Origin: Gracilaria domingensis | Taxonomy: Eukaryota > Rhodophyta > Florideophyceae > Gracilariales > Gracilariaceae | Assembly (NCBI GenBank): GCA_022539475.1 | Contig: VCMS01000030.1 | Coordinates: 186,001 to 250,000, forward strand | Length of the DNA: 64,000 nt | Direction: 5' to 3' | Shown: positions 1 through 44,509 of the stretch, one piece after another | Position numbering within the stretch: position 1 is the stretch's first letter | Layout: every line of letters begins with the position of its first letter | The notes under the pieces: model-generated | What the model was told of the DNA's origin: nothing | Seen by the model: only the letters and a program-made list of their open reading frames with translations | The model's database searches: none | Program-made: the position numbers and the translations under genes

Positions 1-2
1 GA

Positions 3-1232
3 GAGCCGCTTTTGACTCTGATGCCACGTCCAGGTTCTGCAGAACTCTTTCCTGTTCGAGAATCTCTTAAAACATTGGTTTCTCTGCCAGGCACCTTGAA
101 CTTGGGTGCTGTTAGGAAGAAAAAAGCAGTTCTGTCTACTTTTCAACTATCCCGACACATCGTTGCCACTTGTTTGTCATTACTTTTGGATGCAAGCTCA
201 GTAACTCTACATTCTAGTAGCAAGAAACCCAGGACAATAGCTTCTGTGAATGCTCGTGTTAGTGAAAAAATTGTGACAAGGATATTTCAGAAGCAGAAAG
301 CCATGAAAAAGAAGAACGGTGGAAATGTAAATGGCATGAAATACATGACGTTGATCCCTACTCAGCTACAAAAGAAGAACATGATCTTAGAACTACCGTC
401 TCTTGAGCTTGTACGAAGCAACACAGAACCCTACCAACTTTTACGTAATGAACGAATTTCGACCCAGGTCTCAAAGGCGAGCAAGAACCATAAGGAGACC
501 AACATCGCACTATTATCATTTATGTTAATGAACGAAACTGGGAATACGAGCATTCGAGAAGACATGGAAACTTTTGCATTAGAAGGACTTCAAAATTGCA
601 GAAAGGTTTTAGATTGCAGAAAAGAATGTACAAATCGGTCTCTATTCAAGAATGGAATATATAGAAATGACGTTCATACCGAAGATGAAAAGCTTGGTGT
701 CGGTACAGTTGATCCATTCGCCACTTACATACTGGGCCAAAGGATTCCTCTGCACTCATTGTTAGTGAATTTCGAAAAATTGGTTAACCCATTGCTGCTT
801 GAGAATACGAAAGATTTAAGCGTTAAGGTGGATCAGATCGTGAGGTATCCTGTTACTTGGGAACGAAGTGCTATAAGTCGAGTACTGGTGAAAAGCGAAT
901 TCTCTAAAGATCTAGGGACAGCAATTATGGTACGGGAAACACTGGTAGAAGGTCCAGTTTCAGAGAACAACAATATGGATATCAGTTATGCATGTGAACT
1001 TTGTGATTTCAAGCTTTTCGAAGATCCAAAACATGTAATTCAACCACGTGGTGAGACAAATATGTCTCACTGTGAGATCTTGAGCATAAGGTATCCGTTT
1101 TTGGAATGGTACAGTTTGAAAAGCTTTTCTCATCTCAGAAAGAAACATTTTGAGAAAATGCCAGTTACAGTTTCACATTTGCTGAAAAGCAGGGCCTTCA
1201 TATGGCACAAAAATTATATCACAAAAATTTAA
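3..1232 (+). CDS. Partial unknown protein of the KDZ-type element (5' end outside window)
   Basis: The frame is open to the window edge, so the start is missing; at least 410 residues are visible up to the TAA at 1230-1232. I do not recognise the family. The first half is basic and lysine-rich (clusters such as RKKKAV and KKKNGG). Near the C-terminus there is a CELC pair followed about 28 residues later by an HCE, which could be a small zinc-binding site. The last 60 residues are aromatic and basic. A copy of the element palindrome lies in the coding sequence at 1053-1068 and another just downstream. The gene converges with the Pif1-type helicase gene. It is probably an accessory gene of the transposon; that is inferred from position and the shared palindrome only. 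Confidence 0.6.
   Translation, partial: EPLLTLMPRPGSAELFPVRESLKTLVSLPGTLNLGAVRKKKAVLSTFQLSRHIVATCLSLLLDASSVTLHSSSKKPRTIASVNARVSEKIVTRIFQKQKAMKKKNGGNVNGMKYMTLIPTQLQKKNMILELPSLELVRSNTEPYQLLRNERISTQVSKASKNHKETNIALLSFMLMNETGNTSIREDMETFALEGLQNCRKVLDCRKECTNRSLFKNGIYRNDVHTEDEKLGVGTVDPFATYILGQRIPLHSLLVNFEKLVNPLLLENTKDLSVKVDQIVRYPVTWERSAISRVLVKSEFSKDLGTAIMVRETLVEGPVSENNNMDISYACELCDFKLFEDPKHVIQPRGETNMSHCEILSIRYPFLEWYSLKSFSHLRKKHFEKMPVTVSHLLKSRAFIWHKNYITKI
1053..1068. repeat. Element palindrome copy (inside partial unknown gene)
   Basis: The sequence gagacaaatatgtctc differs by one base from the perfect palindrome GAGACATATATGTCTC. It is in coding sequence and reads ETNMSH there. Confidence 0.8.
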
Positions 1233-1329
1233 GGATGCAAAAAGAGAGTGAACAAAAGAGAAACTGAAAAATACATTCATAAATTAGTTGAAATTGCTTC
1301 TGAGCAAAAGCCGCATTTTGGAAATATCC

Positions 1330-1345
1330 GAGACATATGTGTCTC
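1330..1345. repeat. Element palindrome copy (convergent spacer)
   Basis: The sequence gagacatatgtgtctc lies between the 3' ends of the partial unknown gene and the Pif1-type gene. The spacer 1233-1530 is AT-rich and otherwise shows nothing I recognise. Confidence 0.85.
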
Positions 1346-1530
1346 AGGGACAGTATCGACAATATATATTTTTTATAATTGACACACATTTGTAAGAGGA
1401 GATTCAAATAAAACATAAACGTATCCGTACAAAGACTTGGAAATCTTATCTTATCATTTCAAACAAACAGTTCAAATCAAACAACTGTTCTGAGCGGATT
1501 TTCGGTTTTACTACATGGTTGGCCTCAGTG

Positions 1531-3018
1531 TTAGTTATCCAAAATTACCCTTCCAGGATAATGCTTTTGAAGCTTCTGAATGTATTTCATGTAGTCCTCA
1601 GCAGCCTTACTATACTGAATATGTTCTTTTGTGAGACCGCTGACCCATAATCCGCTTAATGACTTGCATCGCGAAAGGGCAACATAGACCATACCGTTCG
1701 GTTTCCAACGGCTCGGAATGAAATCAACAGCAACATTCTGGAGCGTTAGACCTTGGCACTTGTGAATAGTTACGGCATATGCAGGTATTATTGGAAACTG
1801 CTCTCGGGACGCCAAAATAGATGCATCCCTAGCACGAATCGAAAAAGTTTCCTTCCGTAGAATATATTCATCGTAGCCATCCTCAAGCCTATATTTCAGA
1901 TATTGTACTCGTGCTGATGTTCCAAGCGTAACTTCGGATATAATTAACTTTTCCCCAGGAAGAAATGAGCCCGATTTTCTAGTTAACAACACCGCAGCTC
2001 CTATTTTGACGTCGACAACTTCTGGCGCCGCGTTGTGAAGCCTCTCTCTCAGCACTCGGTGAGAAATGTGACCCGCAGAAGATATTGGGACATATGTGTC
2101 TCGAGCAGTGCAATGATACAGTTTTCCAGACAATCGACCTAAAACACGATCATTATATTCGGATACCTGTGAACGATAAAGGAACAGCTTTGTGTGAGAT
2201 CCAGGTGGTTTCAGGATTCCTTTGCTTGTCTTATTTATGCGGTGGACATCATCTTGTGTAACCTTTCCACGACCAATACGTTGGAGAATTGCAAAGAACT
2301 CTTTATCATTCTTTTGTCTATGATTTGCGGAAAGCATGGATACAATGCCCGTCCCAAAACCACCGAAAGTAAGAGACCACGGACGGGAAAGATGAGCGTA
2401 TCGATTTTCCGATGGGAGAGAATCAAATTGCTCAACTGGCCCCAATTGGAAGATATCTCCTGAAAGAACTACTTGTCGGCCTCCAAATGGTAGAGCACAG
2501 TCTACATCATTTCGAACTAAATATCTTAGTATCGCATCGATTGCGTCCAAAGTCTCTGAGTTGAGCAAGAAAACTTCTTCAATAATCAAAACACGAGCTT
2601 GACGAATTTCATTCATTCTCCATTTGTTCTTTTTAATTTCATCAAGAAGCTTCTCTTTCGAGAGAGCCCAGTTAGCATGAATACCAAAAACTGCGCTTAC
2701 TGTTCTTCCTCCGATTGGTCTTGAAGCTTGGTGAGTATGGGAACATGCAATCACTACAGGATACTCTCCAACATTTTTTAATGCGTACTGAATCATAGAT
2801 TGAACCAGCACCGACTTTCCACTTCCTGCACAGCCAAGGAGAGCAATAGATTTTCCACTCTTGAAGGCCTCCATTGTGCGGCGTTGAAGAGGATCCAGAA
2901 TATCTTTCATGACGTTCTCGAGACAGAAATGTCTGATGAGGCACACGAATATTACGGACACGCTTTGCTCAAGAGAGGGAGCAACATGAGATATTTGCCT
3001 CCGTTGGTAGCATGTCAT
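1531..3018 (-). CDS. Pif1-type superfamily 1 DNA helicase of the transposon
   Basis: The 495-residue product is a Pif1-family 5'-3' DNA helicase. Motifs run in order: Walker A GCAGSGKS near residue 63, Walker B VLIIEEV, motif III VVLSGDIFQLGPV, and the C-terminal pair TIHKCQGLTL and VYVALSRCKSLSGL. The Pif1 core is essentially complete, with only a short N-terminal extension. The ATG at 3016-3018 gives the longest protein; an internal ATG shortly before the conserved DPLQRRTMEAF would also work. The gene is divergent from the transposase (373 nt apart) and convergent with the partial unknown gene. Pif1-type helicases are recurrent cargo of large eukaryotic transposons, including Helitrons, but no Rep/HUH motif is visible here. 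A likely role is replication or repair during movement. A host Pif1 origin is less likely because the palindrome also lies inside this gene. Confidence 0.88.
   Translation of the reverse strand: MTCYQRRQISHVAPSLEQSVSVIFVCLIRHFCLENVMKDILDPLQRRTMEAFKSGKSIALLGCAGSGKSVLVQSMIQYALKNVGEYPVVIACSHTHQASRPIGGRTVSAVFGIHANWALSKEKLLDEIKKNKWRMNEIRQARVLIIEEVFLLNSETLDAIDAILRYLVRNDVDCALPFGGRQVVLSGDIFQLGPVEQFDSLPSENRYAHLSRPWSLTFGGFGTGIVSMLSANHRQKNDKEFFAILQRIGRGKVTQDDVHRINKTSKGILKPPGSHTKLFLYRSQVSEYNDRVLGRLSGKLYHCTARDTYVPISSAGHISHRVLRERLHNAAPEVVDVKIGAAVLLTRKSGSFLPGEKLIISEVTLGTSARVQYLKYRLEDGYDEYILRKETFSIRARDASILASREQFPIIPAYAVTIHKCQGLTLQNVAVDFIPSRWKPNGMVYVALSRCKSLSGLWVSGLTKEHIQYSKAAEDYMKYIQKLQKHYPGRVILDN
2087..2102. 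repeat. Element palindrome copy (inside Pif1-type gene)
   Basis: The sequence gggacatatgtgtctc has two mismatches to the perfect palindrome and lies within the helicase coding sequence. Confidence 0.8.
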
Positions 3019-3391
3019 CCTTTCTCAAAACGTGAGGTTTTGAGAAAGGATGGATCTGCACTTTCTGTGCCATATGTTTCTAGAACAAAGCTCCCTAACT
3101 TGGATAATATAGTGTAAGTGGTTTTGAATTTTGGCGCCAAAGGCTTTCCATCCTGTTCTGGTGGCCAGCAGTGCCAGCATGATGTCAGTATTTATCGTAC
3201 GTGTACAGGTAGAGGCACCGAGAATACGATTTGGAATCTGCTGCACATCAGAAGGAGCAAACCCAAATCCTTCCTTGTTCATTCATTCATTCCACGCATC
3301 TGCCCCACATCTGAAGGAGCAAACCCATATCCTTCCTTGTTCATTCATTCATTCCACTTTGTCTCACTGCTCTCCTTTCGAGGCTACTCCA
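3019..3391. promoter_or_regulatory. Divergent spacer between helicase and transposase, with a tandem repeat
   Basis: This 373-nt spacer should hold both promoters. Its notable content is a tandem duplication: about 51 nt starting at 3244 recurs at 3306 (period 62), each copy ending in a run of ATTC repeats. The two copies read in different frames, which argues that this stretch is untranslated leader and supports starting the transposase at 3392. No TATA box stood out. Confidence 0.5.
3244..3356 (+). repeat. Two-copy tandem repeat, period 62 nt
   Basis: Each copy has the core cacatc-gaaggagcaaaccc followed by tccttccttg and an attc-rich tail. The copies differ at only a few positions, so the duplication is recent. 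It lies in the presumed transposase leader. Confidence 0.85.
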
Positions 3392-6300
3392 ATGGATTCT
3401 GAATGGACCGAGTCTGATATCCATCGCATGAACATTGCGGTAAATCAGATAGAATTGGATACCGGAGGGAAAGATTTATCGAACGAACCCTATACAATAC
3501 CACACCCCTGCATTGCCACAAATGATGGAACAGAGCAACATCAAGACATATCTGTACCCACAAATGAATCCTATCAAGCAATTCCTGCCTTCGGCTTTGA
3601 TCTGCAAACAATTATTCAAATGAACACCGCTATGAGAGAGCTCAATCAGAAAAAGCAGGAACTACAAGCAGATGAAGATTTCGTCGATGAAACTGTTTAC
3701 TTAAGTAGCAATGATGTTATCTTTTCCTATCAAACTCTGTTACAATCACGACCAGGCACGAAACATGGGAAAGGTGGGCGTCGTCATGCTGCTGGGGCGG
3801 CAGAGCAGAGAGCCAAAATCCCCGAGTCCCTGAAGACGATGGTGTGGAAGTTTCTTTCTCACGCTCTAGGAGGCATCGAAAAGGCCATTCACAGAATTTT
3901 CGAAGGATTGCGATTTCGATCTTTGGCCGTTCCTCTATCACCTGGATGGGAAAATAACTTGAAAACTTATCTTGGGCAGCTCTTGCGAAATGTGGATCGT
4001 GTCGCTGCGTCTATGTTTCAACTGGTTCCAAACTGCCCAGTTCTATGTCTCTGCACAAGAACGCAGTTCTCACAGGTTGGAATAGATGAATGTAACGCAA
4101 TGGAACGTCATGTGGCCTGCACATGGATATCACTCGATGGTGTGGTTCTTTGCACATGTATTGGACTGACTCAATTTCGGATCCTTGGCACAGATGGACA
4201 GCCGGAAGAGAACCAATGCCTACATGTAAAAGGATTGTATGGATTTCTTCAAGGTATAGCCAGTACTTGTGGGATCAGGCCCCTTGATGTTGGGCAACTT
4301 CTAGCCGAGATGTATAAAACTATATTTGGATCTCATCATGAGACATATATGTCCCGTTCTAATGCTCATATTCTGTTTAATAATAGAATATGCGTATTGT
4401 CTTCTGTCTCAAAAGTTTCCGTCAAGGATGTGCTTTGCATGATTCCTGTTCGATGCATGCGCCATGGGCAATATATTTGTGCATTTTGTGACACAGCATA
4501 TCATGGAGGATGTGAACACACTCGTGGAGTTCAAGCCGAACTACAGGCTCGCAGTGATGACTCAGAAAGCACTTTGAAAGTCGAAAGTATGGGCGAAGAA
4601 GAAGGGGTGTTCGGAACTCCGTTTTATACGAAGTCTTTGTCCTATCTACCCCTACCACCAGTAAGTTGCTCGAAAGCAATACAGGTAGACCTGAACGCTT
4701 GCAACTTAGCATCTATGGGGAAACCGTTTCAGATACATGCACCGACACACTGTCAAAAATGTGGCTCTCGGAGACAAGAAAGCTCGCAAAAACTTTGGAA
4801 AGATGGGGTGCTCATGTGTACAAGAGAACCTTGTGCACTTCATGTAGAAGAATATGTTTGTAGTAATCAAACATGTAACTCACCAATTCAACCAGAAGGA
4901 CGAGAACAGTTTGTTTTGCTGTTGAACATGTGCACTGCCGGGACTCATGCCTTGTTACGACAAGAACTTATCGGAGTCGTGCTAGGAAACGGGACATTGA
5001 ACAGTCGTTTAAAACACTTCCATTCACAGGTGCAAGCTAACGTAAATGCTGGATATTTTGGCTCCAGTACTGTTCCATGCAGATCGGTTCGAACCATTCA
5101 GGACATGTGTATCTTGATGATTAAGCTCATGACGATGGAACCAGATGTCGCACTGTTTAGGTGCGACACTTGTGAAGATTCTTCTGAAACTATTCCGATC
5201 ATATGTATAGACGGTATCCAATTGGGGTATCTGAAGAACAAACAAGTTAGGCTTAGGAATATTTCTCAGAAATGTGAGCCACTTCCGCGGTCAATGGCCA
5301 GGTCCAAAGGGAGCACATATCGACCACTAACTGGACTCATACGAAAGGACACGGCGGTCAAATTGTTTATGTCCACATTGAAAGGAAATATTGGGACTTG
5401 CACGAGAACAAATGTGAAAGAATTTGTCATGTGTATTCGACTCGTTAGTGACAATATTATTCCTCACACGTTTTGTACGGAATCCATATGCGGTAGTACT
5501 CCGAATGATACCTCAAATGATATTGGTAATCATTGCCACTTATTCTCAATTCGAAGGCTGGCAAGCTCCTTCTTCGATCAAGCTTCTCTTTTACATCGTT
5601 TTCTGCTACCACTCCATTATTTTATCTCTGGTCTTTCCCCAACCACATTGGAAACTTTTGGGGCTCTAGGATCGGATCCTCATTCGATTACAGACATAAT
5701 TTCAAACAAGCTTGATTTGCTGCAAAACGAATCTAGGTTACAGAATACAGGTATACCTTGGCTCAATTCGGACTTATTGGGCTCCCAGGGAAGAAGTGAT
5801 CGAAGGAAAGAGTTGTTTCATATGTTTGCTATGTTTTTCAAAGGGCCAGTATGTCAGTTTATTAGAAGATCAGATCTGCCGGCAGTTTGGTGCCTGGGAC
5901 ATATATGTCTCGAACCAGAGACGCAATCAACTCTCTATGTTCTTAGCAATCCCGAGACGCTGGTTAATGCCGTGGAACAAACCAATATTCTATCCACATC
6001 CCGTTTGCTTCAAGCAGGACTACAGACAATTGTCGAAATTGAGCTTCATGGATCTGTCGAAAAGGGAAGAGAAATGCGGTTTGCAGTGGGCTGTATACTA
6101 CTACGTTGTCACGATTGCGTACAGAAGTTTTACGGATATTATGAAGATCCTCCTCGAAAAAGCTCAGCATTTACATATGCTCAAGAATGGAGTTCAACAA
6201 ACAAAGACGAACTCTTACAAAGAATGTCTAACAAATACAGAGCAGACAAATTGGAAAAAGTTTCAAGTTTAGATGAAGCTCTTTATACTGGATCATACTT

Positions 6301-6934
6301 TCCAGGACGTGAGCAAGTCAGACCACTCCCATTCAACAACGATGAAGTTGGAGAATCTGAAATGGGGGTCTTTGGTCTATGTTCAAAACAGTTCTTTCAA
6401 AAGCAAAACAGTTTTACACCCGGCGCTATGACAATATCTTGTGCATGTGCTAGCCCTGTAACGCTTGGTATTAAAGTCCTTTATCGTAACGAAGGTCCAA
6501 AAGTGGTATTGGATATGATTGTGTCCCGATTTCCAAAGATCCCAAGGTTTATCGTGTACGATTTTTCATGTGGGCTTTTTAATTCCTGTGTTAACACTCT
6601 ATGGTGGGCATTAGCGGAGTCAACAATCGTAAGTGACAAATTCCATATTGAAAACCACAAGCACTGCTCTCCCTCGTATAATCCAAGAGTTTACGTTGAA
6701 CTCGACACAAAGAACACTGTGTCCCATGAACAGAGAAATAGCGGCATTAGAGTTATTGGACGATCGTTACGAAATGGCGGTCATGGCTATTATATTGCTT
6801 TGCTCGCTTACCAGGCATTAATTCAGAATATTAAGGCCAAAGCAAAGCTGACCAAGAAGTATCAAACGAGAGAGAGCTTCGTTTCAGAGCATGATTTAGA
6901 ATGGTCTTATTTTCACTGTTTGAATATGAACTGA
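3392..6934 (+). CDS. KDZ-superfamily (Kyakuja-Dileera-Zisupton) transposase
   Basis: This 1180-residue protein is the probable transposase. An N-terminal region with DE-rich stretches is followed by a Cys/His cluster of CxxC...CxH type (CAFCDTAYHGGCEH from about residue 363) and a second one (CQKCG...CTREPC...CSNQTC) near residues 450-495. The C-terminal core has the KDZ signature: YDFSCGL, then SDKFHIENHKHCSPSY from about residue 1081, then NTVSHEQRNSGIRVI. In KDZ proteins these aligned Asp, His/Cys and Glu-Gln-x-Asn-Ser positions form the catalytic region. I start at the ATG at 3392; the frame is open further upstream, to about 3131, but that part is a tandem repeat. Two palindrome copies lie in the coding sequence. 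The frame is intact, so it may be functional or only recently silenced. It is divergent from the Pif1-type gene. Confidence 0.87.
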   Translation: MDSEWTESDIHRMNIAVNQIELDTGGKDLSNEPYTIPHPCIATNDGTEQHQDISVPTNESYQAIPAFGFDLQTIIQMNTAMRELNQKKQELQADEDFVDETVYLSSNDVIFSYQTLLQSRPGTKHGKGGRRHAAGAAEQRAKIPESLKTMVWKFLSHALGGIEKAIHRIFEGLRFRSLAVPLSPGWENNLKTYLGQLLRNVDRVAASMFQLVPNCPVLCLCTRTQFSQVGIDECNAMERHVACTWISLDGVVLCTCIGLTQFRILGTDGQPEENQCLHVKGLYGFLQGIASTCGIRPLDVGQLLAEMYKTIFGSHHETYMSRSNAHILFNNRICVLSSVSKVSVKDVLCMIPVRCMRHGQYICAFCDTAYHGGCEHTRGVQAELQARSDDSESTLKVESMGEEEGVFGTPFYTKSLSYLPLPPVSCSKAIQVDLNACNLASMGKPFQIHAPTHCQKCGSRRQESSQKLWKDGVLMCTREPCALHVEEYVCSNQTCNSPIQPEGREQFVLLLNMCTAGTHALLRQELIGVVLGNGTLNSRLKHFHSQVQANVNAGYFGSSTVPCRSVRTIQDMCILMIKLMTMEPDVALFRCDTCEDSSETIPIICIDGIQLGYLKNKQVRLRNISQKCEPLPRSMARSKGSTYRPLTGLIRKDTAVKLFMSTLKGNIGTCTRTNVKEFVMCIRLVSDNIIPHTFCTESICGSTPNDTSNDIGNHCHLFSIRRLASSFFDQASLLHRFLLPLHYFISGLSPTTLETFGALGSDPHSITDIISNKLDLLQNESRLQNTGIPWLNSDLLGSQGRSDRRKELFHMFAMFFKGPVCQFIRRSDLPAVWCLGHICLEPETQSTLYVLSNPETLVNAVEQTNILSTSRLLQAGLQTIVEIELHGSVEKGREMRFAVGCILLRCHDCVQKFYGYYEDPPRKSSAFTYAQEWSSTNKDELLQRMSNKYRADKLEKVSSLDEALYTGSYFPGREQVRPLPFNNDEVGESEMGVFGLCSKQFFQKQNSFTPGAMTISCACASPVTLGIKVLYRNEGPKVVLDMIVSRFPKIPRFIVYDFSCGLFNSCVNTLWWALAESTIVSDKFHIENHKHCSPSYNPRVYVELDTKNTVSHEQRNSGIRVIGRSLRNGGHGYYIALLAYQALIQNIKAKAKLTKKYQTRESFVSEHDLEWSYFHCLNMN
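4340..4355. repeat. Element palindrome copy (inside transposase gene)
   Basis: The sequence gagacatatatgtccc has one mismatch and reads ETYMSR in the transposase frame, the same peptide start as in the 502-aa gene at 22.4 kb. Confidence 0.85.
5896..5911. repeat. Element palindrome copy (inside transposase gene)
   Basis: The sequence gggacatatatgtctc has one mismatch. It is read in a different codon phase from the copy at 4340 (GHICLE), so a shared peptide does not explain the motif. Confidence 0.85.
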
Positions 6935-6975
6935 TTTTATTCCAAAGTCGTCTTTTAATTAAAAGAATACTACTC

Positions 6976-6991
6976 AAGACATATATGTCTT
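6976..6991. repeat. Element palindrome copy, 41 nt after the transposase stop
   Basis: The sequence aagacatatatgtctt is a perfect 16-bp palindrome, extended to 18 bp by flanking C and G. Confidence 0.9.
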
Positions 6992-7364
6992 GGTTGTTGA
7001 TCGCAATTTATTTCTTTGATCTCCCCTTGGAAAGGCAGCATTATACCTTCAAGCATTCTTGACAAATTCTCTTCTTACGTTGCAAAGACGAACAGTATAG
7101 ACTTGTACGTATGACAAAAATTACCACAACTATCATTTGTGGGCTTTTAACACAAAGTTGCTTTCCAAAAACTTAGTAGTCGGTGGAAGATAAATTGATT
7201 TTCTGCTTGCAAAGCGAAATGTTCTTGCTTTGCTGCGTTGTCAGATGCTTGGTGACTAAAGATCTGCTCTGGAAAATAGGAAGCAGCATGTGAAAGCAGC
7301 TTTTGCGTGATCCTTGCAGTCGCGGATATCTGTGTGTGGTTTCTGTAAAGCAAAAATTTTGGCT

Positions 7365-7380
7365 TAGACATATATGTCTC
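7365..7380. repeat. Element palindrome copy
   Basis: The sequence tagacatatatgtctc has a perfect GACATATATGTC core. It lies in the noncoding interval between the full transposase gene and the first relic. Confidence 0.88.
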
Positions 7381-7559
7381 GCAGTACTGGTTTGCGCACT
7401 TTGGTCCAGGATGGTGTCTGTGACCTAAACTAATTCCGTAAATGACTTGCTGCTATTAACTGTACACTATTTTACAAGAAAAAATTTCGCCCACCTTTGG
7501 GCAATCTAGGTACACAGTTGCGGTGGTGGTGCTCACGAATGCCGTGCAATGAGCAAATT

Positions 7560-7700
7560 AAATTTTCTTGTTTCTGCCAAGCGTTAATTCGAAACATTAA
7601 AGCCGAAGCAAAATTGACAGAGAAGTTTAAGACAAGAAGCAATTCATTATCTGAACATGATCTAGAATGGTGTTACTTTCATTGCTTACAAATGAAATGA
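7560..7700 (+). pseudogene. Relic of a second KDZ transposase 3' end
   Basis: This is a diverged copy of the last 45-50 codons of the transposase at 3392-6934. Its readable tail QALIRNIKAEAKL...SEHDLEWCYFHCLQMK matches QALIQNIKAKAKL...SEHDLEWSYFHCLNMN. The rest of that copy is absent. A decayed palindrome (agcatatatggattg) follows the stop by about 38 nt. It is either the remnant of an older insertion or a tandem duplication of the element end. Confidence 0.8.
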
Positions 7701-7737
7701 GATAGGCAAATAATTTTGTATATCTAAACCTTGATTT

Positions 7738-7755
7738 AAGAGCATATATGGATTG
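7738..7755. repeat. Decayed element palindrome after second transposase tail
   Basis: The stretch aagagcatatatggattg resembles caagacatatatgtcttg with several changes. It is called mainly because of its position, 38 nt after the relic's stop, matching the other two tails. Confidence 0.5.
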
Positions 7756-7949
7756 TACATGTTTAGAGAAAGTTGAAGTTAATTCATTGCAAATGTTTGG
7801 TTCTACTTAGTATAGGAACGTGTGAAAGTGTTGTGCAGTTATTTAGGCAACGTTAGTTATGACATAGTGGCTTTATTTGTCATTCTATGTTGCTCTATTA
7901 CGAGGAATGAGCCATGCAACTCAACGTGATAAAAAGGTGTAGATGAACT

Positions 7950-8000
7950 GATGTTTCAAGCGTAGAGTGGCGTTACTTTTATTGTTTGGAAATGAAATAA
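7950..8000 (+). pseudogene. Relic of a third KDZ transposase 3' end
   Basis: About 12 codons are recognisable, reading VEWRYFYCLEMK then TAA. This corresponds to the transposase end LEWSYFHCLNMN. Its short length makes it weak alone, but the next palindrome lies 33-35 nt downstream, as for the other tails. Confidence 0.55.
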
Positions 8001-8034
8001 ATTGTGAAGGTTTTGAATGGAAAGGATGTGAGGT

Positions 8035-8048
8035 GGACATACATGTCC
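8035..8048. repeat. Decayed element palindrome, last in the left block
   Basis: The sequence ggacatacatgtcc keeps the outer arms with a changed centre. It is the last copy before an 11-kb stretch where I found none. Confidence 0.65.
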
Positions 8049-8050
8049 TG

Positions 8051-8558
8051 CAAGATGTGCGAGAGAGATTCCCCGCTGCCTACTTGCGCTGTGCAGCAGG
8101 ATGTCAAGTTGCCATGGACCTTGACTCATGGGAATGAATTATATTAAAAAGTTGAATAATATTAATAAATTTGCAATGCGGTGCGAACTGGCAGATGTTG
8201 TATGTATGATTCGAAGCATTCAGATTCCAAGTTCGCCTTCTCTAGACTTACCTCAGAGTCGGATGATCCGACAAAGCGTCTGCAAGAAAGTCCAGCGAGA
8301 ACTCAGCGCGAAGTCGAGATGTAGGGGATAGCTTGAATGAGCTTCAACATTTGCTGAGCGTCCAGCTTCATTCCATCAGCTCCTTGGTCAGTGCTGTCAC
8401 TCCGTCTCACCAGCGCATCGTTTCTATGGAGGAGGCCCAAATCGTGACAAACCTCGGATCTCAATAAAGCGTGATGCCGCTACTATCATGTACAGACGCT
8501 TGAGCTCCGTCCGGAGTGATTAGAAGCAGGTTTGTACGCACTAAAGATATCTCTGTCC
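8051..8558. other. Spacer with coding-like remnants upstream of the REJ-like gene
   Basis: No intact gene is visible. On the plus strand two short stretches look like former coding sequence: about 8210-8325 (contains SESDDPTKRLQESPARTQRE) and about 8330-8467 (contains LQHLLSVQLHSISSLVSA, ending at TAA), in different frames. They could be remains of an element gene or an upstream exon of the REJ-like gene. I cannot decide between these. Confidence 0.35.
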
Positions 8559-12355: not shown

Positions 12356-12468
12356 TTCTCTACTTCTGTTAAACGTACCAAGACGTTTGGCTCAACCTGT
12401 GTTGGCTGTGTTGCATACCGGCAATTTTGAAGTCGGATTCTTGATCGCTTTCCTTTCACACGACTATC

Positions 12469-14073: not shown

Positions 14074-16792
14074 ATGGCTCCATCGCAACCCGTCCCTGTC
14101 ACTTCCGACAGGTCTAAACCGCACGTCTTGACCGACGAGCAAAGAGCGATTGTCACTGCCGTAGCACAAAAAGGCCGTAACGCGATCGTCAATACGGTGG
14201 CTGGATCTGGAAAGACGCGCACAGCGCTAGCCACTTCCCCACAATAGCTGAGTACTCGTCCGGATTATGCTAAGCCAACACAACAGGTGCTGCTCGTGGC
14301 CTACAACAAGCACCTAGTGGAAGACATGTCCGCACATGTGAAGCGATGATACCTAGTGCATTTCGACCTTTCACCCACGTGCGGACCATCCACAGCCTCG
14401 GTCATCCTTTTTTCGGGGGGTATGGGCAAACCTCGGACTGCGAGCTTTCAAACTGGACAAATGACCGGAAGCGGTCTAGGATTTCCCTTCCGGCCTTCGG
14501 GCTGGTCATTGTAGACGAAGCACAAGACCGGAAGCCTGTGCTGTTTGAGTTTCTTTGACACTTCTTACCTCTGCTCAGTTTTCGGCCACAGCTACTGGTC
14601 CTCGGCGGCCCTTTTCAACTGCTCTACCGTTTCAGAGGCGCCGATGAGGCATATATTCTTGAAGCGGATACCAACTTCAAGGATCTCGTAGCCAATGCCC
14701 CTTTCGAGCATTTCAGGCTCAGTATCTGTTTCCGGATCACGCATGAAATGGCTGCATGGATCAACGAGAGAATCTAAAACCAAACAACTTGCACCGCGCG
14801 CGCATGCCGTATCCAGGCTGGTTTGAGCAACACAAGAACAATATCGAGCAGTGGTGGGGAGATGGCATCCGGACAAACCCGAAGCGACCACCATCACCAG
14901 GGTCGGGAAGCTACTATAGACGCCCTCAGACGTCCCAAAGAGAAGCATTGGACCGCGTAGTCAACAAGGTTGAAACGGTCTTTCAGAACTACGACACGGA
15001 TTCGTCGGCGCTGCTGTCCCCTTCTATCTCCTCCAAACCTTATAGCCCGGTCCGTCTCATCACGAATAAGCTGTATAGCGTAAAAAAAGTGGAGCAGTCC
15101 TGGTTCATCGATGATAGCCGTAGAGCGGACGATCCTGTGTCAGACGCTGTGCGCCGTAACAAACGCATCGCTAGCAGTGTACATAAGTTCAAGGGTCGCG
15201 AGAGTGACGCTATCGTCTTCGTTGGGTCTAATAGCTTCGCAGAGCACGTCGAAAAGGTCGACCCACGTAACGTGTTTAACATGTTCTATGTCGGCGCCAC
15301 TCGGGCACGAAAACAATTGCTCATTGTGCAATGGTCGGAGCAGGCACATGCTACCCATACGTCCCGTGTGAAGTACGTAGAAGACGAAGATTTTGTGCCT
15401 GCACCCTGCCCAGTAACAAAGGCACTGGAATACAGCCCGTATATCAAGATGCTGTGCGAGGAGTCACCGGCATGTATTGAAGCGAAAACGACGGAAACCA
15501 TAGCTGCCGTCTCGCTCGGCCGTCAAGACCACTTAGTGAGCGGTGCACACACACCGCAACGGCTGAGTACGATGAGGAATGGGGCGCCATCATTGAGCTG
15601 GGGATAGAAGTGCGGCTCCAGCTGCTCCTTGACGACGGTAAGCTTGAAGTGCCACCAGAATGGGATGGTGATGAAGAAATGCCGCTCGATCTGCAGGTCT
15701 TTTTCACACACTTGAGGAGTCAAGCTGAAAAAGCGCGGTCTTATTCCTGGGCGAGTGTGCCGGAGATTGCGACGGCCTTTTTGACGAAGAGGGATCGGAT
15801 GTATTATCGCTGGAGACAGGTGCGCTACTTCGCACGTTGGCAGATCGTGATGAACTCAGTGAAGCTGAATGAAGTGGTCCGCAACTTGGTAATGTTGTTG
15901 GAGGTCGTGTGCGGGGGAAAGGGAGCGGAGGCCATGAAAGGTGTGGACGATGTGGAGGCAACACTAGTATACGCAGAGGTGTTGACGCGTTTGAAGAGGC
16001 TTCGGAATGATATGAGAATTTTGTTCCATGATGCGTTCCAGTTTGATATGGGATGCAATCCAGGTTTTGTGCAGCGATGTGCACCGAGCTTAATAGGCGA
16101 ACCGGACTTCATCGTTCTTTCTAAAGAGGAGGCGGATTTAGATGCGGAAATGGAGAGCGAAGAGAGAAAAGAAAGATGAGGATGGAAAATGTGATAACGA
16201 TGTTGATGACGGTAACGGAGATGGTGTTAGACTTGTTGAAGTAAGTGTGGCGTCGAAGACGAGTCACGACCACTTGCTACAGGTAGGATGTTACCGAGCC
16301 ATGCAACGTGATATGCGCATAGCGAAGAGAGCGGACCGGTTGAAGCTGTCGTCGAAGGCGGTTGAGGTGGATACTAAAATGCCCAAGATGTTTGTGGCAT
16401 ATGCGAATATCGGGTTGTTGAAGAATGTGAAGCTGCACATGAACTCGTTTGAGTTCTTGCACCGCGTGGGCTGCCGTAAGATCAACGTTCCATTCGAAGC
16501 TCTCAGGATAGAGCGCCCGGATCGGAAGGAGAGCGCAGAAGGGCAGTTGCAGCAGGGGATCAATCGGTCGCAGGATGCAACGCGCGCGCATGAGCTATCT
16601 CAGCGCGTGATGAATCTGTCGCAGGATATGTCGGACGCGGACAAGCTGTCTCAGCAGATGGTAAATCCATCGCAGGATATAGGTCCGGGACCGTCTCAGC
16701 AGCCGGTCAATCTGTCCCAGCCTATGCCGGATACTAGCAGTTCATCTCAGCAGGTGATCAATGTGTCCCAGAAAATGCCCGACGCGTCATAG
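14074..16792 (+). pseudogene. Decayed UvrD-type helicase with PD-(D/E)XK-like nuclease tail
   Basis: The region reads as one former gene of about 900 codons, now broken by several stops and frame changes. Superfamily 1A motifs survive in order: LTDEQRAIV and AGSGKT (Walker A, about 14205), VRTIHSLG, VIVDEAQD (motif II, about 14510), LLVLGGPFQLLYRFRGA (motif III), FKGRESDAIVFVG (about 15190) and YVGATRARKQLLIV (about 15290). Downstream, GEPDFIV and LVEVSVASK (about 16096-16257) match the Asp and Glu-x-Lys pattern of a PD-(D/E)XK nuclease, as in helicase-nuclease fusions. The tail carries SQ-rich repeats. It lies between an intact gene and another decayed gene and lacks the KDZ palindrome. Origin (host, mobile or viral) is undecided. 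Confidence 0.7.
16549..16791 (+). repeat. Five-copy repeat of about 17 codons (SQQ-V-N-SQ-MPD type)
   Basis: The end of the decayed helicase-nuclease gene encodes about five degenerate repeats, for example LSQRVMNLSQDMSDADK, LSQQMVNPSQDIGPGP and SSQQVINVSQKMPDAS. Each contains two Ser-Gln steps. Ser-Gln clusters can be ATM/ATR-type kinase targets in repair proteins, but here this is only a resemblance. Confidence 0.75.
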
Positions 16793-17188
16793 TGGAAAAG
16801 CAGTTGGTCGGCAGGAGTGGTAATTTCCCAGAAACGATAGTAGAAGCTTGTTGTTCAACTACGCACCAAAGGTACCAAGCGCAGAACGTATTGTACACAA
16901 AAGCCAGGTTCGGAGAGCCCACCGATTTCCCGAGTCGAATAAGGTCAGATGCAACTATCCACAAAGTCAACAATATCATAGGATGACCATCTTGCTTCTT
17001 CCTGAAATTATTTCCTGCTCATACCCCTTCCAGGGATTGTGCGGTTCACGACATCGATGGTATCGCTGGACACTGCAGTACGCAGCGTGTCCACTTAGTA
17101 CAACATGGTTTCAAATGCCATTAAATAAAGATCTCGTTCGTTCGTTCGTAATCATCCATAATGATCAGCATCTTCACCATGAATACCG
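16793..17188. other. Spacer between two decayed genes
   Basis: I see no gene, repeat or clear signal here. Confidence 0.4.
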
Positions 17189-18589
17189 TCACCCATCGCC
17201 CTTCATAGAAGCGGAGAGCCATTTGGGCGGGGTATTCTCAAGGTCGACAATTCGTGCCTCTGGATGTTTTGCAGGACTCTGCGCGTAGTCGTCATCAACC
17301 AGCCGCGGCACAGACCGCGCCCGAATCTTACCATCCTTGTCAACATGCAGCCGTTTATCAATCCCGTTTCGCTCCTGGAACATAACAGAAGTTATCGTCG
17401 TGTCTTCGACAACAACCTCTGTTTCAATCACAGTTAGCACCGTGTCGTGCTGCACCTCGCCAACTGCGCCAAACTCCTGTGCTAGAGCGGGCGGGTCGAC
17501 CAGCGCCTCTACGTCGCCACACCAGCACAGCGATGCGCCCTTCTCCGCGATCGTCACTTCTCGGATAGCCTCATCTACGAAGTCCTCACGTGCTTCAAAA
17601 GTCATCGGCTCGCGCTGCAAGCGCAGCGCTTGCTCGACATCCGTGACTCCTAGCTAGTCCCACTCGACTTGAAGCACCTGCTCACGGTCCGACGCCCATG
17701 TGATACCCTGGCTTGTTCCAACCGACGTAACAAATGCCCTGGAGTATAGATCGTCACCTTTGGGAATCGCATAATATACGCTATCTCCCGTATCGTCCGT
17801 TAACCAAGCTCCGAAGTAGTGTGCCCCCGTCTTCCGCTCTACCGTCGGCCAGAAGCGTTCAGAGATGCTCTGCTTTCGTGAGAGGTTGAGCACAACAACC
17901 AGCCCCTATAGGTACGTGTCGAGGCCAACTTCGGCCCATTCAAAGTCTTTGAGTTCCGGCGCTTTCCTAGCGTACTTTCGGAGCCGCGTGTCTGTCTAGA
18001 ACTTCGTTTGGGTCCACCTATAAGGGTGAACAACATTCTTAATGGAATACACAGCGCAAGTCCAGTAGTCAAACGTTATGCGATTCCGCCCATACTTGTG
18101 ATGCCTGTGCTTGACAATGATGTGCCCAGCGTCGTCATCCTTGTGCATCCCAAGTGCCGAGAACAAGCTTTCTTCTTCCTGGTCATCTTCAGGAAAGATA
18201 TGCACGAAACTCCCTGGATCGGATAGCTCATTCAGCGTGATAGGGCGCGACAGAACATTGTCAAAGTGGCTGGCGTCCTTGATAAAGCAACCGTCGGCTA
18301 CGTGATTTCGCGCAACTCGTCGACCTGGGTGTTCAATATTGATTGAAATCCAATGCCATCGTCTACCGTACTTGCGAGCGATGTGACAGTCAGATCTGCC
18401 TCGTTTTTTCACAACAGCGCCGAATACCGAGGCGACACAGCCCCAAGGCGCCTTCTGAACCGTGTCAAGCGTGCGGTCTGATGCTACGAATATTTCATAT
18501 GTCATGTCAACCTCGTACACGGCATGATTGGACCCGACGAGCAAAGGGCGCCCGACCTGACAGATGGCCGTTATGAACCCCTGTACCAA
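17189..18589 (-). pseudogene. Unknown gene, nearly intact but broken by about three in-frame stops
   Basis: A single minus-strand frame of about 467 codons keeps good coding character throughout and is interrupted only by about three stop codons, with no frame change seen. Readable stretches include GRRWHWISINIEHPGRR, SRPITLNELSDPGSFVHIFP, HYFGAWLTDDTGDSVYYAI and TVLTVIETEVVVEDTTI. No family was recognised. A run of aromatic and acidic residues in the first half suggests a folded globular domain. It converges with the helicase-nuclease relic, and both lie in the palindrome-free segment. It may have entered with that relic. Confidence 0.5.
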
Positions 18590-18931
18590 GAATCATACAT
18601 GCATAACTATCATGACACAAAGCATTATACAAGCTTGTGATTGCCACAGGTTTATCAAGAACGGGATATTCAGAGTTGGGATCATACTGCAACACATACG
18701 AGGAAATGGAATGAGTGACAGTGAAAATGACATCGAGTTATCGAACGAGGAGATGAGACGAATGCTTGGGTACGTGCACAAAGTGTGCACGAACATGGGA
18801 GGGAAAAGTGGTGGCCTGAAAGGTGTTTGAGGAGACATCAGGCTCTGGGGATGGTGGAAGAGAGCGGTGTGGTTTATCTCGCGGTGATTGGCGGCGGCGT
18901 GCTCTAGTCAATGAGACATTGTGGGACACAG
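18590..18931. other. Spacer at the junction with the right element block
   Basis: No gene is supported. This is where motif-free sequence gives way to the palindrome-bearing block, so an insertion junction may lie here, but I could not identify a target-site duplication or inverted repeat. Confidence 0.35.
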
Positions 18932-20176
18932 TTATCGAAACCTTTTCGGTGGCCTTCTTATTCGTTTGGATGGTACCTCTTGGTTCTGTTTCATATTACT
19001 ATCAGACTCCTTTGATTCGTTCATTATAACATTCAGATTAAGTTTGTTGCCTGGCTGAGACATATGTGTCTCGTTCTTACTCACCAAATTTGTTGAAGGA
19101 CTAGGATTCGTTTCACGATCGTTTGGTGTGGATTCTTGCTGAGTTGTTACACCCCGTACCGATGTAATTGAATCTCTATCTTCGTCGTTACACGCTTCTG
19201 AAATCTCTTTCGGGCTTTCGGTAACCACTTCAGTCTTCACACTACGCAGAGTCGGAGCAGAAAACATTTCCAGAGGTACGCACGAATAGCCCTTAATAAA
19301 CAGTTCCGCTCTTGAACGCAATACTTCTATATCATGTTGCTTAAACAATGGAACAGCCCCACGCTCCAAATTCTCCATTACCCATGCTACGAAAATACCG
19401 CAAGAACCGCCATCTGTTTGCCTTGGATACGCAGACTTCTCCAAAACCACCCATTCCCGTTGTGGGCGCTTCAATTTAGATTCCATGAAATCCAAAAAGT
19501 CCTTCATCAGCTGAGACGCTTCCGTTGCAGTGTTCGTTATGCGCAAAAAAGAGTCGTATACCGTAATCATCGAGTAGTCCATATTGATTGCTAATAAAAA
19601 CCAATGACGATCTGCAAGAAACGGAGAAAGAATTACTTCGGTGTCTTTGAACGACCAGGATGTCTTCTGAAACCAACGGTGTAAGTCCTCAAACACTTCG
19701 CAACGCTTTTCTGAACCTACTACATGCCCTAACCGCGAGATAAAAAAACTGTCTAGTACGACTACTTTCTTGCAATTCCCAAAACCTTGAAAACGATCTA
19801 TGTTTCGCTTTCTTAGCCGAGCGGCGAACAGATCCATAAAGTCGTTATCTACCCACCCTTCGCTTGTGCGAAGTTGCGAAATTACAGATGCAGAAACGGT
19901 AATGTTTTCAAATGAAAATGACTCAGGGTCGAAAGCGATCACAGACTTTTCTTTTGCAGTAAGATCTCGAAGTAGTAAATTATCTTTTCTTTCGTTAAGA
20001 TCTTTCTCCTTCGAAAATGCTTTGCGTTTCCTACGTGATCTGATAGCTAGACTAGAACTTGAAATAGTTGCGCGGGAAGAACTTACCCCTGCCAAACTGC
20101 CCTCTTGAACAACACGTCTTCTAAGAAATAGTTTCTCAATGTCCTCTTCGAATTGCTGAAAGATATTGAAGTCCAT
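18932..20176 (-). CDS. Ulp1/SENP-type (C48) cysteine protease of the transposon
   Basis: The 414-residue product is a C48 peptidase, the fold that processes SUMO and related modifiers. The catalytic set is complete: His in DRHWFLLAI, Asp in ITVYDSF, the oxyanion Gln in PRQTDGGSCGIF and the Cys in the same motif. The N-terminal 110 residues are basic and charged (RSRRKRKAFSKEKD), which suggests a nuclear location. A disordered polar tail of about 110 residues follows and ends in RPPKRFR. The ATG at 20174-20176 is the only good start. The palindrome at 19057-19072 lies in the part encoding the tail. Ulp1-type proteases occur in several large DNA transposon groups; the substrate, perhaps the transposase or a host SUMO conjugate, is unknown. 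Confidence 0.88.
   Translation of the reverse strand: MDFNIFQQFEEDIEKLFLRRRVVQEGSLAGVSSSRATISSSSLAIRSRRKRKAFSKEKDLNERKDNLLLRDLTAKEKSVIAFDPESFSFENITVSASVISQLRTSEGWVDNDFMDLFAARLRKRNIDRFQGFGNCKKVVVLDSFFISRLGHVVGSEKRCEVFEDLHRWFQKTSWSFKDTEVILSPFLADRHWFLLAINMDYSMITVYDSFLRITNTATEASQLMKDFLDFMESKLKRPQREWVVLEKSAYPRQTDGGSCGIFVAWVMENLERGAVPLFKQHDIEVLRSRAELFIKGYSCVPLEMFSAPTLRSVKTEVVTESPKEISEACNDEDRDSITSVRGVTTQQESTPNDRETNPSPSTNLVSKNETHMSQPGNKLNLNVIMNESKESDSNMKQNQEVPSKRIRRPPKRFR
19057..19072. repeat. Element palindrome copy (inside Ulp1-type gene)
   Basis: The sequence gagacatatgtgtctc is identical to the copy at 1330 in the left block, linking the two blocks. Confidence 0.88.
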
Positions 20177-21610
20177 GACCGGTCAGCGCAACGACTCCAA
20201 CTGAGAGTTTTCAGATTCCTCAGACAGTGAAGGTGATCACGCAATGGAACGCGGAAGAGAGCAACTCCTTTCCAGCTTATGATGTAACGTGGCTGAGATC
20301 CACGAATCATTTTCTGAAAAACTGAATTTTGCTTTCAGCGGCTGCATGCCGAGCAGCGGCAAAGTGTACAGCACTAGCAGCGTGGCGTGGTTCCACGTAG
20401 GATATTGCTGCTGCCGTGGCAGCGAGCCGGCGGCGGCACCCACCGCCTGTCATGAACATGGCCGTCGTTGAGAAAAGTGCGTAAGCTCATAGAGAGAGGA
20501 CGTGAAGTGGGCGTTGGTGTGGCCGGGCACAAGCGCCCGCGGCGCAGAGAGAAACCTTGCGCTACACCACCTCTAGCGTTCTCTGTCGCTGCCGCGCTTG
20601 CGGGCGCGTGTGCGCGTGCGTCGGGGGAATCAACATGCGCCGCGCGCCCCGCCGGGCCTTTGCGCTTGATGCCATCGCCACCGGCTGTCGACCGCCTGCA
20701 CGTGAAGCTGCCAAGGCACGTGCGCCAGGCATGGTGCCTGCAGCCCATCGAGCTGCTGCCTATCGAGCTACCGCAGCAAGTCTGGCACGCGTTGTTCCGC
20801 CCGTGGTCTGTTCGCTATGCCACCGCTTGGGTTTGGTGTTGCTGCCACGCTCGCAAGATCGTGGGCGCGGGCGCTGGGAGATCAACAATCACAGCGCGCC
20901 CGGACGGACTGGACACTTGCTCGACGACATCGCCGTCAGGCACCGACCGCCGGCCCATGGAGCTGCCGCCGCGCATTCGGCGGCATGGTGCCTGTCGGGC
21001 GTAGAGCAGCAGCAGCGTGTCGACGTGCGCTGCTGCCCCCTTTTGTCTAAATTCTTTGCGAGGCTGGCGCTCCCTTCGTCCGACAAACAGCGCTGCGCGA
21101 CCGTGCGCTGCCCGACTTGACGTGTTACCAAACGACTACGTGGTCTTGATCTGCGCCGTTGTGCTGCTCCTTAAGCTCACCGCTACGTCGTCGTTGTTCA
21201 TGGCTGTGTCTCTTCTGACCCTTTTTTCCCGTCAGTGTTACGAGCCGGAGGCCCCTCGCGGCTACCCATTTCACGCTGGAGCAGCAGCAAGCTTGTTGCT
21301 TCGCGTCAGTTGCTTGCCGTTTTCTTGTGGCTCTCGCTTGCTGTCCATTATGTGCTCCGAGCGTAGTGACACGCGAGCATGCGTCGGAACATGCGAGAGA
21401 ATCGCACGCACATTTTTGAAACTGGTGAACTCAATTTTATCATCCACATCTTTCTCTCAACATGTGATCGTAACTTTTCAAAGCGTGCGTACGGAAAGCT
21501 TTAACAGACCACCCGAAAACAACAAAAAAATACAAAAGCTGTGATTCCAGTTGCTGTACAGGGAGGAAACTTCCCGCAAGTTGACGACGAAGTTCATTCT
21601 GCGCCCAGAG
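20177..21610. other. GC-rich spacer inside the right element block
   Basis: Between the Ulp1-type gene and the 502-residue gene lies 1.4 kb that is clearly GC-richer than its neighbours from about 20340 to 21120. It has long open frames in several phases, but these follow from base composition and none matches a known protein. A two-unit imperfect repeat accounts for the core. Promoter function for the Ulp1-type gene is possible. Confidence 0.5.
20577..21020 (+). repeat. Imperfect two-unit GC-rich repeat, period about 255 nt
   Basis: A unit starting near 20577 (tctagcgttctctgtcgctg) recurs near 20824 (cttgggtttggtgttgctgc). The parallels continue for about 190 nt, including gatgccatcgcc versus gacgacatcgcc, ccggctgtcgaccgcc versus caccgaccgccggcc, and a shared catggtgcctg. 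The two copies are well diverged, so the duplication is old. Confidence 0.6.
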
Positions 21611-23119
21611 TCATTCTTGAGTTATTTCATTCAGTCGTCTTTCTATTTCAGTCTTCATTCTGGATAAGTCTGCTCGGCTCATGGTATTTAAACTAAATTC
21701 AAATGGGGTGATAGAAAGACGCCTGGTACCGGAGCGCGTGACGCGTCGGTCCTTCCTCAAGTTTCGAAGTTCAGATTTCAAAAGTTCAATCTCCTTCAGC
21801 AATGCCTTTTCAGTCTTCTTCTTTTCTTTAAGCGTCTTCCTCAGTTCCTCCAAATCAACCATGCCGGACATGCTGCCTTCGACATCGATACCTCCCTCAT
21901 TTTCTGCCGCTGGGTGCTTCGACAACTCCGTAACCCTCTCTGATGTAGATGCACTGTTCCTGCTTCCGTGACGTCGTCCTTCAGACCAAGTTTTCTTTCT
22001 TTCTTTCTGTAAAGACGGCACCTCCCCTAAAGCCTTTGCCTTCCTTTTCTCGCCACGAGTGTCAGCACTTGGAACTGTTTCCTTGCTTTCTTTTCCCAAT
22101 AGTTTCAGAACTGTGCTCTGCAAATCACCACGCTTAACAGCTTTGATGAACTGAGTGCAAAGCGGAGCGAGCTTCAAAGCGCCATTTTTACCAACCATAT
22201 GATTCCTTAACCGCAGTCCCTCTGAACAAAGCTCAATAATAGCTAATAATTGTGGAGAGGAAAGTTCCCCTGCGTACCCTATATGAGTGCTCTTGAATTC
22301 GGGCATCAGATGGTAGTTTTCCCATAACACAAGTATATCCAAAACCGATTTCCTAGCACCTAAATAAGACATGGTCTTGGACATATATGTCTCAATTAGG
22401 CGCATACACCCCAACAACTGTCGATTCAAATGTCGCGTTGTATGGGAGTAGTTGTACAGAAAGTGATTGCGATCATGATCCTCCGAAGAGCCTAGTCCCG
22501 TGTAACCAAAAAAGCGAGCTCTCAGAAACTGAAAACCACCATATACCTGACGAGCCTTAGAATAAGGTTTTGGTATTAATGGATCCTCATTAACCATTGT
22601 GCGCAGTACTACAGCTTGGTTCAATGGTGTGTAAGATTTTGGAGACACATCTCTAGTATTCGTCACAATTGCCAAATATCTAAGTGCACGAAACACGAGA
22701 GATTTCGTCCCTTCACGAGTCATAGATTCCCTTTCAAAGGATGTATGCAGTCTTCGCACAGACTCGAATACCTCCAGAATATGCTCTTTTGTAATGATAT
22801 GCGAATAGACAAGATGAATCAATGCTTCTCGGGCTGAGACTACACGATGATTACCTGCGATTACAAAGCATGGTAAGGTGAACGAGAATCCGTTCAGATC
22901 AAATATAGGTTCGGTCAAAGTGATAGGTTCATGCTGACGGAAAAGCTCATTGTTCATCTTTCGGCAGTATGATAGAGCATCAAACTTGTTCACGGGGCGC
23001 ACGATTGTTTCAAAATGAGGAAGATGATGGATCAATTTCACAGGAAAGGGGACAATTGGGCTCTTACGTACTACCATCTTGATGCGGTCGGCTACAATGA
23101 GTGGGTGTTTGAAGTTCAT
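21611..23119 (-). CDS. Unknown 502-residue protein of the KDZ-type element
   Basis: The product starts at the ATG at 23117-23119. The first 330 residues are a globular, helix-rich domain with motifs such as LPHFETIVRPVNKFDALSYC and FFGYTGLGSSEDHDRNHF. A basic disordered linker (EKRKAKALGEVPSLQKERKK) follows. A coiled coil of charged heptads (LEELRKTLKEKKKTEKALLK onward) leads into RKDRRVTRSGTRRL. The protein ends with a short helical segment. I do not recognise the family. The basic linker plus coiled coil suggests a DNA-associated, self-assembling protein, which fits an accessory factor that binds the palindrome; that is speculation. A palindrome copy lies in the coding sequence at 22378 and another lies 270 nt upstream. 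Confidence 0.65.
   Translation of the reverse strand: MNFKHPLIVADRIKMVVRKSPIVPFPVKLIHHLPHFETIVRPVNKFDALSYCRKMNNELFRQHEPITLTEPIFDLNGFSFTLPCFVIAGNHRVVSAREALIHLVYSHIITKEHILEVFESVRRLHTSFERESMTREGTKSLVFRALRYLAIVTNTRDVSPKSYTPLNQAVVLRTMVNEDPLIPKPYSKARQVYGGFQFLRARFFGYTGLGSSEDHDRNHFLYNYSHTTRHLNRQLLGCMRLIETYMSKTMSYLGARKSVLDILVLWENYHLMPEFKSTHIGYAGELSSPQLLAIIELCSEGLRLRNHMVGKNGALKLAPLCTQFIKAVKRGDLQSTVLKLLGKESKETVPSADTRGEKRKAKALGEVPSLQKERKKTWSEGRRHGSRNSASTSERVTELSKHPAAENEGGIDVEGSMSGMVDLEELRKTLKEKKKTEKALLKEIELLKSELRNLRKDRRVTRSGTRRLSITPFEFSLNTMSRADLSRMKTEIERRLNEITQE
22378..22393. repeat. Element palindrome copy (inside 502-residue gene)
   Basis: The sequence tggacatatatgtctc has a perfect GACATATATGTC core. 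On the minus strand it reads ETYMSK, close to the ETYMSR encoded by the copy at 4340 in the transposase. Confidence 0.88.
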
Positions 23120-23388
23120 GATGTATGAGAGGAGGTTAAAAGTTGATGAGATGAAGTGGTTTTTGTTGTTGCTAGGGGAAAGATGATGGCAACAGGAAGT
23201 GATTCGGGTAGGAAGCGTTTTGAAAGCCAAGACTAGGAATCTGAAATACGCTGTAGAGGACTAAAGTTTTGGGACGAATTTGAAATTTGTTTCTTTTAAT
23301 AAATTTGGGTTATTTGCTGTTTTATGATCACAATGTGATTTACGTATAATTTCTGTGAATCAACTGGTTGAAAATAAGTTTGCAGAGT

Positions 23389-23404
23389 AAGACATTTATG
23401 TCTT
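23389..23404. repeat. Element palindrome copy, last before host genes
   Basis: The sequence aagacatttatgtctt has one changed central base and lies 270 nt upstream of the 502-residue gene. Confidence 0.8.
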
Positions 23405-44397: not shown

Positions 44398-44458
44398 ATG
44401 GCCGCGCCGTCCTCCTCGCGCCGCGCGTCGCGTCTCTCCGCGTACTACACGCGCGAGC

Positions 44459-44509
<51 letters not shown>

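Follow-up and report, generated by a model that had tools for sequence, protein, structure and literature searches.

A palindromic word dispersed along the native genes of a gene-capturing transposon in the red alga Gracilaria domingensis

The stretch of the Gracilaria domingensis genome considered here (contig VCMS01000030.1, positions 186,001 to 250,000; the whole 64,000-nucleotide stretch is called the window) opens inside a transposon of 25,499 bp, whose native genes and intergenic spaces carry scattered copies of a short palindrome, GACA-N4-TGTC. These sites are in excess of what protein content explains, are confined in the window copy to the native backbone of the element and are kept at matching positions in diverged copies. 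The genome searched was a single one (77.9 Mb, 680 contigs; C-numbers denote contigs, and the window lies on C30). Confinement to the native backbone rests on one complete element, that of the window; most other copies were covered in their left part. In window coordinates, the element and its contents are as follows.

1..1232, plus strand: gene A, 582 amino acids, its open reading frame (ORF) starting at -516, left of the window; recurs in other copies; no Pfam family
1531..3018, minus strand: PIF1-like helicase gene, 495 amino acids (Pfam PIF1, E 1.6e-22); genome copies
3131..6934, plus strand: gene T, presumed transposase, 1,267 amino acids from TTG or 1,180 from ATG at 3392; copies at nine places
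8532..11813, plus strand: captured host gene piece with a REJ domain (Pfam REJ); no motif site; 95% match to C13:186232-189114
12469..13530, plus strand: ORF of 353 amino acids, probably native; no motif site; similar stretch in C111
13519..18873 (limits approximate), no strand assigned: a nested mobile element of another kind, free of the motif and with copies on C169 and C4
18932..20176, minus strand: Ulp1-type (C48) protease gene, 414 amino acids (Pfam E 4.1e-17); genome copies
21611..23230, minus strand: gene o21611, 539 amino acids; no Pfam family above cut-off
23565..23626, minus strand: terminal inverted repeat of the right end, which pairs imperfectly with the left end in a pairwise alignment of the two
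23627..23633, no strand: AGCGTCC, the 7-bp target duplication on the right side; its left counterpart is L030:8121-8127

Window positions 1..23626 are part of the transposon, the left end of which lies about 1.9 kb before the window (L030:8128) and was placed by alignment, the copies on C118, C124 and C178 beginning alike behind differing flanks. The right end, 23,626, is the stop point common to two places on C117; C436 also stops there, but this may just be the end of that contig. Given that copies share these ends, that the termini are imperfect inverted repeats over about 60 bp and that AGCGTCC flanks both sides, the whole is therefore an inserted transposon, with the terminal inverted repeats, target duplication and differently flanked copies of an inverted-repeat DNA transposon. 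T-bearing copies occur on nine contigs, and further places hold right-hand genes only; all copies are mutually related, such that tests among them are not fully independent. Because they recur in other copies, A, the PIF1 helicase, T, the Ulp1 protease and o21611 are taken as native, and ORF 12469-13530 as probably so. The REJ ORF, by contrast with these native genes, is a 95% copy of a host gene on C13 across its first 966 residues, the cargo of the C118 and C117 copies is an Arf-like gene (91% like one on C7), and a piece with a condensin-subunit domain in C7 is also found in C99; these elements therefore pick up host genes. Judged from sequence, the element family is a large one that captures genes, and its presumed transposase stands outside Pfam's families.

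What stays invariant in the palindrome is the core GACA-N4-TGTC, preceded by a purine and followed by a pyrimidine. A set of 38 sites from several elements (leaving out the near-duplicates in C124, C99 and C178, an odd site in C111 and a chance match in the left flank) has TATA as its prevailing spacer; its outer bases are predominantly C/T then G on the left and C then G/A on the right. An unbiased count of all 256 half-sites at spacers of 0-12 in 10-kb stretches of three diverged copies likewise gave GACA with spacer 4 as the commonest inverted tetramer (11, 10 and 8 occurrences). Between positions 1 and 23,626 there are 12 exact cores, seven in coding sequence and the rest between genes, and two more, at -883 and -64, precede the window and are likewise exact, with good flanks. 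The sites, including two one-base remnants, are listed below with the 12-mer's first base as the start, which is 2 higher than in the numbering of the earlier note.

1055..1066: core GACAAATATGTC, in gene A, phase 0
1332..1343: core GACATATGTGTC, between A and PIF1
2089..2100: core GACATATGTGTC, in PIF1, phase 1; each of the six compared copies has it exact
2922..2933: core GACAGAAATGTC, in PIF1, phase 2; not in the earlier note's list
3545..3556: one-base remnant GACATATCTGTA, in T; exact in C118, C124 and C178
4342..4353: core GACATATATGTC, in T, phase 0; present too in C118, C124 and C7
5102..5113: one-base remnant GACATGTGTATC, in T; exact in C118, C7 and C99
5898..5909: core GACATATATGTC, in T, phase 2; exact in C118, C124, C7 and C99
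6978..6989: core GACATATATGTC, just after T
7367..7378: core GACATATATGTC, between genes
8036..8047: core GACATACATGTC, between genes
19059..19070: core GACATATGTGTC, in the Ulp1 gene, phase 0
22380..22391: core GACATATATGTC, in o21611, phase 0; exact in the window copy, C99 and C111, one base off in C7
23391..23402: core GACATTTATGTC, 235 bp from the right end

An earlier note, made from the letters of the window, had listed ten clear copies, and all ten coordinates are right: a search at three or fewer mismatches returned 11 places, that is, those ten and 2920. It had added two decayed copies, of which the one near 8035 proves to be an exact core and the one near 7738 does not match the core. 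Its judgement that the word exceeds chance holds (a mean of 0.77 matches in dinucleotide shuffles, none of 100 of which reached the observed 22 strand-matches), as does its report of sites between genes and in more than one codon phase; all three phases, 0, 1 and 2, are seen. The claim that the word marks every gene fails, as the REJ ORF and ORF 12469-13530 contain no exact core, nor does the nested element. The gap described at 8.05-18.9 kb consists largely of the captured host gene and the nested transposon, although the native-looking ORF lies inside it too. The rest of the window, said to be empty from 23.4 to 64 kb, holds three bare GACA-N4-TGTC cores beyond 23,626 (27693, 43300 and 61525), each preceded by C/T instead of a purine. 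The terminal repeats are without the motif, the nearest sites lying about 1 kb (left) and 235 bp (right) from the ends; the real ends are a different sequence, so the motif can be rejected as a terminal repeat, as the earlier note had held.

Across the genome, GACATATATGTC occurs at 50 places against 7 for its reversed control, and the region within 3 kb of element genes, which makes up 0.29% of the genome, holds 36 of these 50 and 38 of the 58 places of GAGACANNNNTGTCYC. This count used 39 gene intervals, with pieces of some copies merged, and left out nine PIF1 rows resembling host helicases, three weak Ulp1 rows and three short T-end repeats. The word is thus not equally common genome-wide, in agreement with the earlier note's view that it belongs to the element. 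The leftover places (14 and 20, respectively) still outnumber those of the reversed controls (7, and 7 per strand), and some look like relics, among them two on C69 next to terminal-repeat-like DNA and two on C11. The C69 stretch (L028:5700-5960) consists of tandem terminal-repeat-like units near two motif sites and is perhaps a non-autonomous relic.

Shuffling codons while keeping each protein (six native window ORFs) gave 0.79 expected sites against seven seen, with a maximum of five in 2000 shuffles. Of twelve single sequences tested, REJ cargo included, significance was reached only by PIF1 and T of the window and by T in C7 and C99. In comparison with the 67-71%-identical C7 copy, all eight fixed bases are kept at three of five coding sites of the window copy and four of six of C118, against a background of 3.4% and 4.0%, respectively, of all coding positions. 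Where the window copy and C7 encode the same amino acid, they also use the same codon at 14 of 18 positions within sites, against 491 of 1153 elsewhere (P 0.003). Even in the decayed C54 copy, which has many stops, two of three placeable T positions still match seven of the eight fixed bases. Sites along the left-hand genes recur on average every 0.9-1.5 kb and are densest in the T/PIF1 module. In the strict version of the test, gaps are more even than random in C118 (coefficient of variation 0.26, P 0.0003), in C124 (0.26, P 0.001; a close relative of C118, such that its evenness is not independent) and in the left module of the window copy (0.44, P 0.0075); adding one-base remnants gave smaller P values. 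Codon shuffles, retention in diverged copies and genome-wide co-location together bear out the earlier proposal of a dispersed site network under selection.

We tentatively suggest, with somewhat less than even confidence, that the motif is the binding site of an element-encoded homodimer that marks the body of the element and holds its chromatin in an open or unsilenced state. The symmetry and degenerate edges of the word, together with its occurrence in every codon phase as well as between genes, point to a protein dimer acting on DNA; since the word is retained by the element, the protein bound there should be of help to it; and as sites run along the body, with none in terminal repeats or cargo, chromatin marking or opening fits better than end recognition. 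We infer all three components, that is, action as DNA, a dimeric binder made by the element and an anti-silencing outcome. In such a mechanism, a homodimeric sequence-specific protein, most likely encoded by the element, would read a dyad-symmetric site composed of two RGACA half-sites and a 4-bp spacer (usually TATA). Sites retained along the left-hand genes, coding sequence included, would let the bound protein mark the body, and this protein would then hold the chromatin open or unsilenced by a logic like that of VANC proteins, with another site architecture. A candidate feature is the conserved CELCDF...KKHF stretch of gene A, which could bind zinc and is only a hint toward the putative binder.

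VANC proteins of Arabidopsis VANDAL transposons act against silencing through a sequence word (PMC5735166; PMC10398659), and the VANC21 word, YAGTATTAY, which is not given in palindromic form, is described as mainly non-coding, arrayed in high-density tandem repeats of one orientation and fast-changing (PMC5735166). The likeness, as far as that account goes, is that a short word is enriched in one transposon family and rare elsewhere, with an element-encoded reader proposed here. Unlike those fast-changing repeats, the present word is kept at matching positions in 67-71%-identical copies. In the portion of the literature covered, sequence-specific anti-silencing by transposons is described for Arabidopsis VANDALs; a comparable palindromic code dispersed in coding DNA would mean that such a strategy arose elsewhere in eukaryotes too. 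If our reading is true, the reach of one bound site, and whether this reach sets the spacing, becomes a question. An extension that we consider rather unlikely is that the sites serve as a self-address by which the element's dimer tells native DNA from captured cargo and coats or opens the native DNA only, palindromes in all phases costing synonymous freedom; if true, this would be a solution unlike VANC arrays and one kept over much greater sequence divergence.

Several observations weigh against the anti-silencing proposal. Relative to the 80%-identical C118 copy, the window copy shows no significant excess retention (three of five sites against a 24% background, P 0.09; starting from the sites of C118, three of six against 24%, also not significant), and the codon comparison of these two is not significant (20 of 23 against 1128 of 1545, P 0.16). 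Spacing is not significantly even in C7 (P 0.15) or C99 (P 0.18), and the right-hand genes of the window (4.7 kb) have only three sites. Compared with the tandem non-coding VANC arrays, the word is palindromic, dispersed and coding in any phase; the window has single scattered sites, seven of the 12 exact ones coding, in place of a VANDAL-type arrangement. Finally, a relative element on L039, an 11.5-kb contig of 62% GC filed under a Gracilibacteria metagenome-assembled genome, encodes relatives of T and PIF1 and is without the word. L039 may be a eukaryotic contaminant; a search of it for another over-represented palindrome gave nothing convincing, the top counts looking like low-complexity GC-rich DNA.

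Other explanations place the sites in a different process. They could serve transposition or replication as points where the PIF1-type helicase or T loads, pauses or forms bridges during movement of a long element, and these two genes indeed adjoin in every copy where both were read, L039 included, in the very module where sites are densest; yet the absence of sites from the terminal repeats and their distance from the ends, together with the presence of both genes on L039 without the word, make this unlikely. A transcription factor of the element or the host might instead use them as enhancer-like or insulator-like elements of the element's genes, consistent with intergenic sites near gene 3' ends besides those inside genes. 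As the sites run through gene bodies, evener than random in three of five copies, and are not grouped upstream, we regard this as still less probable. The element-specific and evenly spread sites would also suit a host silencing factor or DNA methylase reading the word as the mark of a parasite, but an element should shed such sites, yet they are kept, and Pfam found no methylase in the element ORFs scanned, a result that says nothing on host enzymes; the idea is improbable. Among the three kinds of binder that the earlier note had offered, the silencing factor accordingly fits poorly and an element-encoded DNA-binding protein fits best, as far as sequence can tell.

The two remaining explanations, which we consider highly improbable, dispense with a DNA-binding protein. 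An RNA hairpin in element transcripts (7-bp stem, 4-base loop) would agree with the more variable palindrome centre and with the -2/+2 pair, complementary in 22 sites against 17.2 in shuffles (P 0.025), but the -1/+1 (22 against 20.4) and -3/+3 (13 against 15.8) pairs are not above shuffles, and the invariant core neither supports nor denies pairing. Arm complementarity of the 38 sites, with one of five pairs nominally above shuffles, leaves an RNA stem unsupported overall. The sites could otherwise be a mere by-product, whether of a peptide repeat (ETYMS), of the insertion of a mini-palindrome or of common descent with no function attached; ETYMS-like peptides do occur in four proteins at phase-0 sites, and close copies share sites by descent. 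Further sites in phases 1 and 2 or between genes, the codon shuffles and the retention all contradict this. The peptide repeat is ruled out by codon phases and codon shuffles, and insertion is at odds with the alignments, in which no 16-bp gap separates occupied from unoccupied coding positions in most cases, although the position at 2922 aligns badly.

The earlier note had also called the element KDZ-type (Kyakuja-Dileera-Zisupton), which is unproven: Pfam KDZ (PF18758) has no match by hmmscan at E up to 10 to T or its C-terminal half. A genome search with the same family found none, but control genomes gave no match either, so this is weak alone. Pfam scans of element ORFs showed no TET/JBP gene, a further difference from KDZ elements. 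The C-terminal pattern of T, YDFSC...KFH..NH..C...HEQRN, is one that we take to resemble KDZ. In PMC12730594, target duplications are 7 bp for Kyakuja and 8 bp for Zisupton/Dileera, and the Kyakuja families described lack inverted terminal repeats and end in CA..TG, whereas Zisupton has inverted repeats. By that description, the great length, the large presumed transposase and the 7-bp duplication are as in KDZ elements (the last as in Kyakuja), whereas the roughly 60-bp imperfect inverted repeats are unlike Kyakuja and compatible with Zisupton. Among open-licence PMC papers, we found none joining this motif, red algae and KDZ.

Neither the whole of T nor its C-terminal half belongs to a Pfam family by hmmscan. 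Among 5.8 billion proteins, T has seven relatives (five by the C-terminal query, two by a second query); a protein search with the whole of T returned none, as did a PDB sequence search and two scans of viral contigs. Two AlphaFold models were of low confidence (predicted template-modelling score, pTM, 0.35 and 0.46) and were left unused; Foldseek of the second (pTM 0.46) gave no PDB match at E up to 0.001. Behind the gene, window 7578-7697 is a second copy of T's last 40 residues, 70% identical and also present in C178.

Pack-type elements are transposons that capture host genes. The present elements resemble them in carrying host gene pieces (REJ here, Arf-like in C118 and C117) and differ in that their cargo is housed in large elements with several genes and, in the window, does not contain the word of the element. 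The nested element includes a UvrD-like helicase piece, and a piece of about 90 bp at 17061-17153, with matches at more than 20 further places in the genome, may be a short interspersed repeat. To the right of the transposon lie 40 kb with host genes such as Paf67, SKIP and SNF2, within which window 44001-48000 stands out from the remainder of the stretch by being very GC-rich (77% and 68%) and by its many tandem repeats.

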